DNA from: Bacillota bacterium
GTDB taxonomy: Bacteria > Bacillota > Limnochordia > Darwinibacteriales > Darwinibacteriaceae
DNA length: 64,000 bases
Direction of reading: 5' to 3'
Assembly (NCBI GenBank): GCA_012837385.1
Contig: DURH01000069.1
Coordinates: 1-64,000 of the forward strand
Made by a program: the position numbers and the translations under genes. Shown here piece by piece: positions 48,333 through 52,967 of the stretch (the first letter of the stretch is position 1; each line of letters starts with the position of its first letter). Below the pieces are notes generated by a model that had not been told where the DNA came from, made no database searches, and worked only from the letters and a program-made list of their open reading frames with translations.

Positions 48333-49406
48333 TTAGGTCAAGAAGCGGCCCTTTATAATCTTTGCTCTTGCCAGTTTTTTCCTGATCTGCACCTGAATCT
48401 CCGTCTCCGGCTTGGCTGAGTCCACTGGAACATAGCCCATACCGATGGGATGATCCAAACTAGGTGAGTGGGTACCGCTGGTCACAGCACCAATTTGCTG
48501 TCCGTCTAGGGTTAAGATCGGGTAGCCCTGACGGGGAATACCCTTGTCAACCATGGTAAAGGCAACCAGCTTCCTCTGCACTCCCTCTTCCTTCTGCTTC
48601 AGCAGCACTTCACGACCGATGAAATCCTTCTGGAGTTTCACAAAACGCCCCAACCCAGCCTCTAAAGGGGTGGTGTCCTCATCAATATCATTGCCGTACA
48701 GGGGCATTCTAGCCTCCAAACGCAGTGTATCCCGGGCTCCAAGGCCGATGGGCTTCACTCCGTACTTCTCGCCCTGGTTTAGAAAGGCATCCCACAGCTC
48801 TTCTGCAAAGGAGTTGGGGAAGTAGAGTTCAAAGCCATCTTCACCGGTGTAGCCTGTGCGGGACAGGAGCACATTGACACCCTTATAGCTAGGTTCCATA
48901 AAGGTGTAGTTCTTCAAGTCGGCCACAGACAGATCCAGCACTTCCTCTACCAAGGCTGCCGACTTGGGCCCCTGAATGGCGATGAGGGTCAGCTCTGGGC
49001 TTCTATCCACCAGCTGTGTGGCGGGCTTGAGGTGCTGCTCAATCCAGGCATAGTCCTTGGCGGTGTTGGCAGCATTGACCACAAGCAGAAAGCCCTGCTC
49101 AGTCCGGTACACCAGAATGTCATCAATAATGCCTCCCCGTTCATTGGTGAGGCAGGTGTACTGGATCTCGCCCACCTGCAGTGTACTGGCGTCATTGCTG
49201 GCCACCATATTAATGGTGTCTAAAGCGCCTGGCCCTGTGAGTTCAAACTCGCCCATATGGGTGAGGTCGAAAATGCCCACCTTAGAGCGCACAGTGAGGT
49301 GCTCATCCACCAGCCCAGAATACTGCACGGGCATTTCGAAACCAGCGTAGTCCACCATCTTAGCGCCCAGGGCGCGGTGCCTGGCGGTAAGCGGCGTTGT
49401 CTTCAA
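48333..49406 (-). CDS. gcvT: Aminomethyltransferase, glycine cleavage T protein
   Basis: 357 aa, folate-dependent. TPLTARHRALGAKMVDYAGFEMPVQY at the N-terminus, FDLTHMGEFELTGP, and SRTGYTGEDGFELYFP in the folate domain. TTG start behind GGAGAGGGG. First gene of the operon; a 101-base gap separates it from gcvH. No glycine riboswitch (paired aptamers) was recognised in the upstream 150 bases. Confidence 0.97.
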   Translation of the reverse strand: MKTTPLTARHRALGAKMVDYAGFEMPVQYSGLVDEHLTVRSKVGIFDLTHMGEFELTGPGALDTINMVASNDASTLQVGEIQYTCLTNERGGIIDDILVYRTEQGFLLVVNAANTAKDYAWIEQHLKPATQLVDRSPELTLIAIQGPKSAALVEEVLDLSVADLKNYTFMEPSYKGVNVLLSRTGYTGEDGFELYFPNSFAEELWDAFLNQGEKYGVKPIGLGARDTLRLEARMPLYGNDIDEDTTPLEAGLGRFVKLQKDFIGREVLLKQKEEGVQRKLVAFTMVDKGIPRQGYPILTLDGQQIGAVTSGTHSPSLDHPIGMGYVPVDSAKPETEIQVQIRKKLARAKIIKGRFLT

Positions 49407-49552
49407 TGGTCCCCTCTCCTTTCCTTTTTTGCCAGTTCTTTTCCAAGATCATATCAGTTGTTCTCCACTAGAAAGTGGTTTCCTCCTGTCACCATTTCTG
49501 AACTTATGGATACTATAAAGGGCTACTACCCGTTCAGATGGGGGGAAACACA

Positions 49553-49639
49553 ATGTACTTACTCAAGAAGGTTATGGATCCCATCTTAAAGGCACGCCGC
49601 AAGACCATGATTCTGATCTGGCGACGGAAACGCCGCTAG
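49553..49639 (+). CDS. Possible very small basic protein (28 aa)
   Basis: An ATG after GGGGGAAACACA opens 28 codons ending TAG. The peptide begins MYLLKKVMDPILKARRKTMI and ends in an Arg-rich tail; as a helix it would be amphipathic and strongly basic, suited to membrane or nucleic-acid contact. A TACTAT -10-like box lies at 49511 without a clear -35. It is divergent from gcvT and directly precedes a DnaA-box cluster. May be chance. Confidence 0.4.
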   Translation: MYLLKKVMDPILKARRKTMILIWRRKRR

Positions 49640-49657: not shown

Positions 49658-49702
49658 TTATACACAGTATCCACAACCACCTGTGGACAACTTTGTGGAT
49701 AT
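49658..49702. promoter_or_regulatory. DnaA-box cluster away from oriC
   Basis: Four boxes within 45 bases: TTATACACA (49658-49666) and GTATCCACA (49667-49675) on plus; TGTGGACAA (49682-49690) and TGTGGATAT (49694-49702) as reverse boxes. Each differs by one base from TTATCCACA. They lie in the gap between the 28-aa frame and the TPR gene, 11 kb from dnaA. Confidence 0.75.
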
Positions 49703-50229
49703 TACCTGTTCAAAAGGTATAAAACAACTACTGCAATGACGGCGATCACAATCCACCCGACGCGGACAACCCTGCGGCTCTCTGGGCTGGACTGGATCTC
49801 GCTCCGCATCCGATAACGTTCCGAACGATTAGCCTGCTTAAGCAGGCTCACTCCTTTGGCAATATCTCCGCTTTTCCGGTACAGCACCCCCAAGTTGTGC
49901 GTAGCCGTGGGGTTGCCTGGATCCAAAGCTAACGCCCTCTCATAGCACTCCTTGGCCCGATCATACCAACCTTGCTCCGCGTAGATGTTGCCCAAATTCG
50001 AGTGAGCACTGGCCAGCTGGGGATCAAGGGCAATGGCATCATTGAAGCACATCTCGGCCTGCCTCAGGTCCTGGCGCCTGGCATATACCACACCCAATTT
50101 ATTCACAGCCCGGGCGTGCTCCGGTTCCTCCTCCAGAAGCCGCCTCAGGGTCTCTTCTGCTTCATCCAGTTCCCACTTTTCCAAGTGGTCCAGCGCTTTT
50201 CCGTAGAGATCTTCCCTGTTGGTGGTCAT
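49702..50229 (-). CDS. TPR-repeat protein with C-terminal membrane anchor
   Basis: 175 aa from ATG 50229 (GAAGGAGGTGGGCTT). Three to four tetratricopeptide repeats at about residues 8-130 (KALDHLEKWELDEAEETLRR; AHSNLGNIYAEQGWYDRAKE; THNLGVLYRKSGDIAKGVSL), a basic linker, then one C-terminal membrane helix (VGWIVIAVIAVVVLYLL). Probably a scaffold facing the cytoplasm. The open frame continues far upstream opposite the YkvI-like gene, but that part is not protein-like. Confidence 0.85.
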   Translation of the reverse strand: MTTNREDLYGKALDHLEKWELDEAEETLRRLLEEEPEHARAVNKLGVVYARRQDLRQAEMCFNDAIALDPQLASAHSNLGNIYAEQGWYDRAKECYERALALDPGNPTATHNLGVLYRKSGDIAKGVSLLKQANRSERYRMRSEIQSSPESRRVVRVGWIVIAVIAVVVLYLLNR

Positions 50230-52025: not shown

Positions 52026-52041
52026 TGTTCCACGTGGAACA
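52026..52041. repeat. parS site 1
   Basis: TGTTCCACGTGGAACA, a perfect 16-bp palindrome; B. subtilis parS is TGTTTCACGTGAAACA-like. Immediately after yyaC. Confidence 0.92.
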
Positions 52042-52060
52042 TCAGCCGCACTCCGAAGAG

Positions 52061-52076
52061 TGTTCCACGTGGAACA
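52061..52076. repeat. parS site 2
   Basis: Same 16-bp palindrome TGTTCCACGTGGAACA, 19 bases after site 1. Confidence 0.92.
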
Positions 52077-52101
52077 TTTCGCGTCCACTTACTCCTAACA
52101 A

Positions 52102-52127
52102 AAAAGTGTTCCACGTGGAACACTTTT
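52102..52127. terminator. parS site 3 inside the parB/yyaC terminator
   Basis: The 16-bp parS (52107-52122) is extended to a perfect 26-bp palindrome with AAAAG arms and CTTTT on the other side. On the minus strand it follows the parB stop and is trailed by TTTGTTAGG, the form of an intrinsic terminator; the plus side could also serve yyaC. Confidence 0.8.
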
Positions 52128-52967
52128 CTAGATCCTGCTCATTAAGTCAAGCAATCTTTCCAGTTCTTCATCTGAATAGTACTCGATAGCGATGCGTCCT
52201 GTACCCTTCCTGTAAGTCACGGAGACCTTAGTGCCAAAGCGGCGCTGCAAATCCTCTTCCAGCTGGATTAGCTCTGGGCTCTTTATCTTCAATGTTCCAC
52301 GTGGAACATTCTTCGGTTTCTTCACCAACTCCTCCAGCTGCCGAACGCTGAGGTCTTCTGCCACAACCCGCTTAGCCAACTCCGTCCGTTTCTTCTTATT
52401 GGACACTCCCAAAAGAACCTTGGCGTGGCCTACAGACAAGAGCCCTTCCTGAACCATCTGCCGTTCCAACTCATCTAGGCTGAGGAGACGAAGGGCATTG
52501 GCCACCGTGGAGCGCTTTTTCCCCACTGCCTCTGCAGCTTGGACTTGGGTAAACCCAAACTCATCGATCAGCCGTTGATAGCCCTCAGCTTCCTCTATGG
52601 GATTCAGGTTTTCCCTCTGCAGGTTTTCAATGAGAGCCACCTGCATCATTTCCAGGTCCTCAAAATCCCTTACTAAGGCGGGGACTTCACTCAAACCAGC
52701 CATTTTGGCCGCCCGTACCCGCCGCTCGCCAGCTACCAATTGAAAAGCTTGACCCAAGGGGCGCACCAACACAGGCTCCAAGAGCCCTAACTCAGCTATG
52801 GACTGGGCCAATTCTTCCAGCTTGTCCTGGTCAAAATGCTGCCTGGGCTGGAAGGGGTTGGGCTCAATCAGGCCAAGATCGATCTGCTGGATCTCGCCGC
52901 TGGATGCTTCTTCTTCCACTTCTGGAATCAACGCCCGTAAACCTCTACCTAATCTCTGCGTACTCAT
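52128..52967 (-). CDS. parB: Chromosome-partitioning protein ParB (Spo0J)
   Basis: 279 aa CTP-dependent DNA clamp that loads at parS. N-terminal LGRGLRALIPE, arginine-rich QPRQHFDQDKLEELAQSI, CTP-binding LVAGERRVRAAKMAGL and ENLQRENLNPIEEAEGYQRL. The helix-turn-helix is at about 140-165 (FTQVQAAEAVGKKRSTVANALR) and a dimerisation domain ends the protein. A parS site lies inside the gene and encodes NVPRGT in a linker. Start overlaps the parA stop (ATGA). Confidence 0.97.
   Translation of the reverse strand: MSTQRLGRGLRALIPEVEEEASSGEIQQIDLGLIEPNPFQPRQHFDQDKLEELAQSIAELGLLEPVLVRPLGQAFQLVAGERRVRAAKMAGLSEVPALVRDFEDLEMMQVALIENLQRENLNPIEEAEGYQRLIDEFGFTQVQAAEAVGKKRSTVANALRLLSLDELERQMVQEGLLSVGHAKVLLGVSNKKKRTELAKRVVAEDLSVRQLEELVKKPKNVPRGTLKIKSPELIQLEEDLQRRFGTKVSVTYRKGTGRIAIEYYSDEELERLLDLMSRI
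52293..52308. repeat. parS site 4, inside parB
   Basis: TGTTCCACGTGGAACA identical to the other sites, in the parB linker codons. Confidence 0.92.

Follow-up and report, generated by a model that had tools for sequence, protein, structure and literature searches.

A conserved cluster of four DnaA boxes close to oriC in a Bacillota genome: a candidate DnaA-binding platform with the layout of a DARS core

We analysed a 64,000-nucleotide stretch of DNA from a Bacillota bacterium (contig DURH01000069.1, hereafter the window). A box scan of the window places four DnaA boxes within 45 bp at positions 49658-49702, two in forward and then two in reverse orientation, each differing from TTATCCACA at exactly one base. 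The cluster occupies the space between a 28-codon open reading frame (hereafter the microORF) and the end of a gene for a TPR-repeat protein, and the last base of box 4 is also the first base of the TPR stop codon (49702-49704). A preliminary description made from the sequence had reported two forward and two reverse boxes, each one base off, at the 3' end of the TPR gene and beside the 28-codon frame, and the coordinates confirm both the arrangement and the placement. The distance from the cluster to the boxes of oriC is 11.2 kb. Coordinates of all features are given in Table 1.

Table 1. Features of the cluster locus and of the oriC region, in window coordinates.
Feature	Position	Strand	Basis or remark
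gcvT (aminomethyltransferase)	48333..49406	-	Pfam GCV_T, ORFs; starts gcvT-gcvH-gcvPA-gcvPB operon
Promoter-like element before microORF	49490..49517	+	conserved across families
microORF, 28 aa, MYLLKKVMDPILKARRKTMILIWRRKRR	49553..49639	+	ends 18 bp before box 1
DnaA box 1, TTATACACA	49658..49666	+	box scan of window
DnaA box 2, GTATCCACA	49667..49675	+	abuts box 1 (0 bp); layout counterpart of DARS box I
Spacer, 6 bp, between opposed boxes 2 and 3	49676..49681		
DnaA box 3, TTGTCCACA	49682..49690	-	layout counterpart of DARS box II
Spacer, 3 bp, between tandem boxes 3 and 4	49691..49693		
DnaA box 4, ATATCCACA	49694..49702	-	layout counterpart of DARS box III
TPR-repeat protein, 175 aa, C-terminal hydrophobic segment	49702..50229	-	Pfam TPR, synteny; convergent with microORF
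Four parS-like palindromes	52026..52308		in and beside parB
oriC DnaA-box region, upstream of dnaA	60917..61369		
dnaA	61415..62812	+	

The genome to which the window belongs (2,125,523 bp in 71 contigs) contains 614 sites with at most one mismatch to TTATCCACA, against 313 for a reversed-pattern control, and the Poisson expectation for four boxes within 45 bp is about 1e-4 per genome. This figure bears out the earlier judgement that a chance origin is unlikely. The preliminary description had also proposed scanning the full genome for similar clusters; among the 99 strict TTRTMCACA sites listed genome-wide, no second equally close pair was found outside oriC. When the same genome was searched with a profile of the array, the only matches were the cluster locus and, as the second locus, oriC. 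The box variants TTGTCCACA, TTATGCACA and TTATCAACA, which occur in the cluster or its relatives, are present in the oriC of this genome as well.

Conservation in relatives was one of the points on which the preliminary description had made its case depend. The 28-codon frame adjoins gcvT in all 23 genomes of family f1, and the four-box array is kept at the same locus in 22 of them, with box 4 degenerate in some; in the remaining genome (G007) the cluster has been lost and the two stop codons have come to lie near each other. In all 22 genomes the array profile gave its top match at the cluster locus, with E from 4e-15 to 8e-8. The opposed pair of boxes occurs once at the cluster locus in each of them, and a reversed-pattern control of this pair gave zero matches across 73 genomes. 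Mean pairwise identity among the 20 family f1 genomes with a 5-bp gap between boxes 2 and 3 is 0.92 for box 1, 0.92 for box 2, 0.91 for box 3 and 0.69 for box 4; it is 0.50 for the 5-bp spacer and 0.29 to 0.45 for the flanks. Recent common ancestry does not explain the identity of the boxes, since identity at third codon positions in the neighbouring 28-codon gene is only 0.43.

Box 1 follows the stop codon at anything between 0 and 47 bp, but the gaps between the boxes are nearly fixed. For the gap between boxes 2 and 3 and the one between boxes 3 and 4, 16 of the 22 genomes have 5 and 3 bp, four have 5 and 2 bp, and two (the window and G010) have 6 and 3 bp. Box 1 of the relatives reads TTATGCACA, TTATTCACA or TTATACACA. 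Variable sites are position 5 of box 1 (A, G or T), position 1 of boxes 2 and 4, and positions 3 (A or G) and 6 (C or A) of box 3. Set beside the DnaA-box consensus, TT[A/T]TNCACA (PMC8682772), these substitutions fall mainly at positions where DnaA boxes tolerate change. Conservation is very strong and supports the proposal of a candidate extra-oriC DnaA-binding cluster.

Boxes 2 and 3 form an inverted repeat, and the element could instead be an RNA structure or an intrinsic terminator whose likeness to DnaA boxes is incidental. Three of the nine pairs of such a stem are broken, in 9, 3 and 2 of 13 sequences respectively, and none of them is repaired on the opposite side; no compensatory change was found in the box 2/3 stem of these sequences. 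There is no convincing U-tract at the cluster, the terminator scan detected no intrinsic terminator there in the window, and no Rfam family matches at the cluster. With a broken and uncompensated stem and no U-tract, we consider the RNA explanation largely refuted and its being correct extremely improbable. Because the boxes are conserved, their substitutions are of a kind tolerated in DnaA boxes and the possible RNA hairpin is broken, the cluster is very probably a selected DnaA-binding site, similar to the extra-oriC DnaA-box clusters of B. subtilis.

Copies of the cluster were also found beyond family f1. Two genomes of family f5 (G026 and G028) carry the quartet beside gcvT with offsets of 9, 14 and 11 and a 2-bp gap between boxes 3 and 4. 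The microORF was not found in either by a homologue search of the 73 class genomes, and is therefore dispensable for the cluster, the boxes being kept in both. A different gene, which from a reading of its sequence we take to be cation-diffusion transporter-like, sits between the cluster and the TPR gene in these genomes, so that the cluster lies between divergent genes, gcvT and the transporter-like gene. One genome of family f3 (G034) has boxes at the same locus with offsets of 19, 14 and 11. In the other f3 genomes no boxes were found at the locus with up to one mismatch, and several of these genomes have a terminator hairpin there. Across families, then, neighbouring genes come and go and the boxes remain. 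In those f1 members where one contig carries both the cluster and dnaA, and in G026 (15.9 kb), the two are 11.7-15.9 kb apart. Judging from its distribution, the cluster probably predates families f1, f3 and f5, with loss in some lineages. Since one f1 genome has lost it and most f3 genomes are without it, it is not essential throughout the order. The same array was not found across the whole class, and the arrays of other families sit at other loci.

These different contexts bear on whether the cluster acts on transcription. Bound DnaA might halt RNA polymerase as it runs out of the microORF and of the TPR gene, comparable to E. coli asnC, and DnaA roadblocking is cited in PMC11317965. In keeping with such a role, the gap between the two stop codons in most f1 genomes holds the boxes and no intrinsic terminator by scan, whereas several box-less f3 genomes have a terminator hairpin at that place. 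Nevertheless, three genomes (G008, G009 and G015) have a terminator-like hairpin and the cluster together, and although in f1 the cluster stands where a transcription unit ends, its position between divergent genes in f5 speaks against termination or roadblocking as what it does in general. We therefore regard a roadblock as improbable.

It is similarly improbable, if by a hair less so, that the cluster serves to regulate its neighbours (the microORF, the gcv operon or the f5 transporter gene) and not replication as such. Several B. subtilis DnaA clusters sit in promoter regions (PMC4447404), the f5 copies are upstream of a gene, and an unrelated genome from another class (G239, locus L130) carries a group of three DnaA boxes 33 bp downstream of its microORF. 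In f1, however, the boxes lie downstream of the two genes that flank them, some 140 bp past the conserved promoter-like element of the microORF. The preliminary description had seen no part in gene regulation for the cluster; this holds in the window, where it is downstream of both neighbours; in f5, where it lies between divergent genes, it may have a regulatory role.

The study by Okumura (2012) that defined the DnaA-box clusters (DBCs) of B. subtilis has 'oriC-proximal' in its title. The present cluster shows three features of a DBC: its near-consensus boxes are clustered outside oriC beyond chance expectation, it is close to oriC, and its boxes are conserved in relatives. B. subtilis DBCs are likewise near-consensus boxes in intergenic gaps away from the origin, for example where the gcp and ydiF genes meet at their 3' ends (PMC4447404; PMC5295017), and our cluster, like the gcp-ydiF DBC, lies between convergent genes. 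In contrast, the B. subtilis clusters occupy loci other than gcvT-TPR and have 4-11 sites in six regions, as against four boxes here. No counterpart of the B. subtilis jag/trmE cluster was found between the jag and mnmE genes of the window at one mismatch. E. coli datA, which depends on IHF, resembles the cluster in being a non-origin group of DnaA boxes that modulates DnaA, but in MG1655 more than 200 bp of DNA is needed to take in the scattered datA boxes, whereas ours form a compact 45-bp array. The cluster lacks the dispersed layout of a datA site, in which boxes surround an IHF site.

Other Bacillota genomes have arrays of comparable design. The pattern TTATNCACA-NTATCCACA-(4-8)-TGTKGAYA was found in 12 of 399 Bacillota genomes, with 0 for the control. 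Family f109 (L155, L156 and L163) has two abutting forward boxes and one opposed box just downstream of tsaD/gcp, the TsaD (Gcp) identity of the upstream gene having been tested in one of the three loci; in B. subtilis, too, gcp is followed by one of the strongest DnaA sites (PMC4447404). Gaps in other Bacillota arrays with the same arrangement range from 4 to 8 bp, and are 2-3 bp in others. Two further conserved DnaA-box arrays outside oriC were observed in family f12 (L118-L123, L127 and L129), with gaps of 2/3 and 3/2 bp; one is located between an ECF-transporter S component and an MFS transporter, and the second near a GmhB-like phosphatase and a CotS-like protein. No plasmid relatives were found.

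Boxes at this position, conserved in several families with near-fixed geometry and a DnaA-type pattern of substitution, lead us to favour, with moderate confidence, the view that the 45-bp element is a selected DnaA platform of the DBC kind, which would be bound cooperatively and would limit the DnaA available for a second initiation. Boxes 1 and 2 would be occupied as an abutting tandem and boxes 3 and 4 as a tandem 3 bp apart, the two pairs facing each other across 5-6 bp. E. coli DnaA prefers double boxes with a 2-3 bp gap (PMC11317965), and we count the fit of boxes 3 and 4 to this preference in favour of a DnaA platform. Given its proximity to oriC (about 12 kb), the element would be duplicated just after initiation, which would at once double the non-origin DnaA assemblies and leave less free or active DnaA for a second initiation. 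Occupancy by DnaA, its cooperativity and the effect on initiation timing, including the sign of that effect, are what we infer. In B. subtilis, a species distant from the window organism, loss of all six clusters leads to early initiation, and single clusters have weak individual effects (PMC5295017). Since four boxes hold few DnaA molecules, plain titration would need cooperative spreading or catalysis. Of the possible roles (titration, datA-like or DARS-like), the layout does not favour a datA-like one and matches a DARS core.

To make this last comparison, the DARS1 and DARS2 intervals of MG1655 were taken and the boxes located in them. The core of DARS1 reads TTATCCACT-attcc-TGTGGATAA-cca-TGTGTATTA, with gaps of 5 bp and 3 bp, and a typical f1 member (G017) reads TTATACACA-ATATCCACA-agcgc-TGTGGATAA-cta-TGTGGATAT. 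The cluster thus contains the three-box core with box I opposed to boxes II and III, and in 16 of the 22 family genomes the order, the orientation and both gaps of boxes 2-4 are exactly those of DARS1. DARS2, in which boxes I and III were assigned by spacing and are each two mismatches from the E. coli consensus, has the same spacing and, immediately ahead of box I, a forward box, TTTTTCACA, comparable to box 1 of the cluster. DARS2 also requires IHF and Fis, whose sites are in a regulatory region beside its core. The DARS core has been described as a box I that is opposed to boxes II and III, DARS1 and DARS2 being spaced alike (PMC5742627), and the opposed boxes I and II are reported to be essential for DARS (PMC10380432). 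The resemblance is one of layout, and any shared function is putative. Under a DARS-like mechanism, opposed boxes 2 and 3 would join two ADP-DnaA molecules head to head, box 4 would stabilise them, and ADP would be released so that DnaA could take up ATP again; such an element would stimulate initiation instead of restraining it.

Several points weigh against this. The window's own copy has a 6-bp gap, 1 bp off DARS, and in four relatives, as in both f5 copies, boxes 3 and 4 are 2 bp apart. Boxes that face each other across 2-8 bp are seen repeatedly in arrays of other Bacillota and also in the oriC of the window genome. As the arrays of other Bacillota use varied gaps, a chance 5/3 match is possible, and by a rough estimate it is not rare, of the order of 1 in 10; for this reason we treat the DARS-like mechanism, a serious minority reading, as rather unlikely. 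The host is a Bacillota bacterium and not a proteobacterium, and the cluster lies about 12 kb from oriC whereas the DARS sites of E. coli are far from it. DARS loci have been described as absent from B. subtilis (PMC13220808). We would accordingly give only a minor chance to a DARS-type DnaA-reactivating site in Bacillota, in which boxes 2-4 as core would help set the ADP/ATP state of DnaA near oriC; if real, it would be a form of control that is, according to published descriptions, not known from B. subtilis.

Nearly all knowledge of DnaA control in Bacillota comes from B. subtilis. The near-fixed geometry of this short element, retained by several families of one order, allows a DnaA complex to be predicted, and its resemblance to the DARS core opens the way to a direct test of whether DARS is absent, as reported, from B. 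subtilis and its relatives. The widespread, unannotated microprotein family beside the cluster is a second testable lead.

Judging by its codon substitutions, the 28-codon frame is a real protein-coding gene, pN being 0.18 against a pS of 0.80 in 23 genomes. Homologues were found in 50 of the 73 class genomes at E 0.1 and in 65 of the 399 Bacillota genomes at E 0.001. The microprotein consensus is xLLKxxLDPxLKxRxKTVILIWRRxR, with a net charge of +10; no Pfam or NCBIfam model matches the microORF, and a literature search on the microprotein gave nothing. Within the class the microORF is oriC-proximal and mostly divergent from gcvT, and at the other loci examined in the phylum gcvT or gcvH is near it in about half. 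The stretch read around the G239 microORF contains no gcv gene, and the three boxes there may hint at a link between microORF and boxes, or may be due to chance. The promoter-like element before the microORF has the form CAC(A/C), about 15-17 bp, (G/C)ATAnnnT(A/G), and by eye resembles a promoter of the sporulation sigma-K type. Elsewhere in the window, four perfect parS-like palindromes, TGTTCCACGTGGAACA, were observed in and beside parB, and two weak Rfam mir-2009 matches (about 52.05-52.13 kb) are explained by their overlap with these palindromes.
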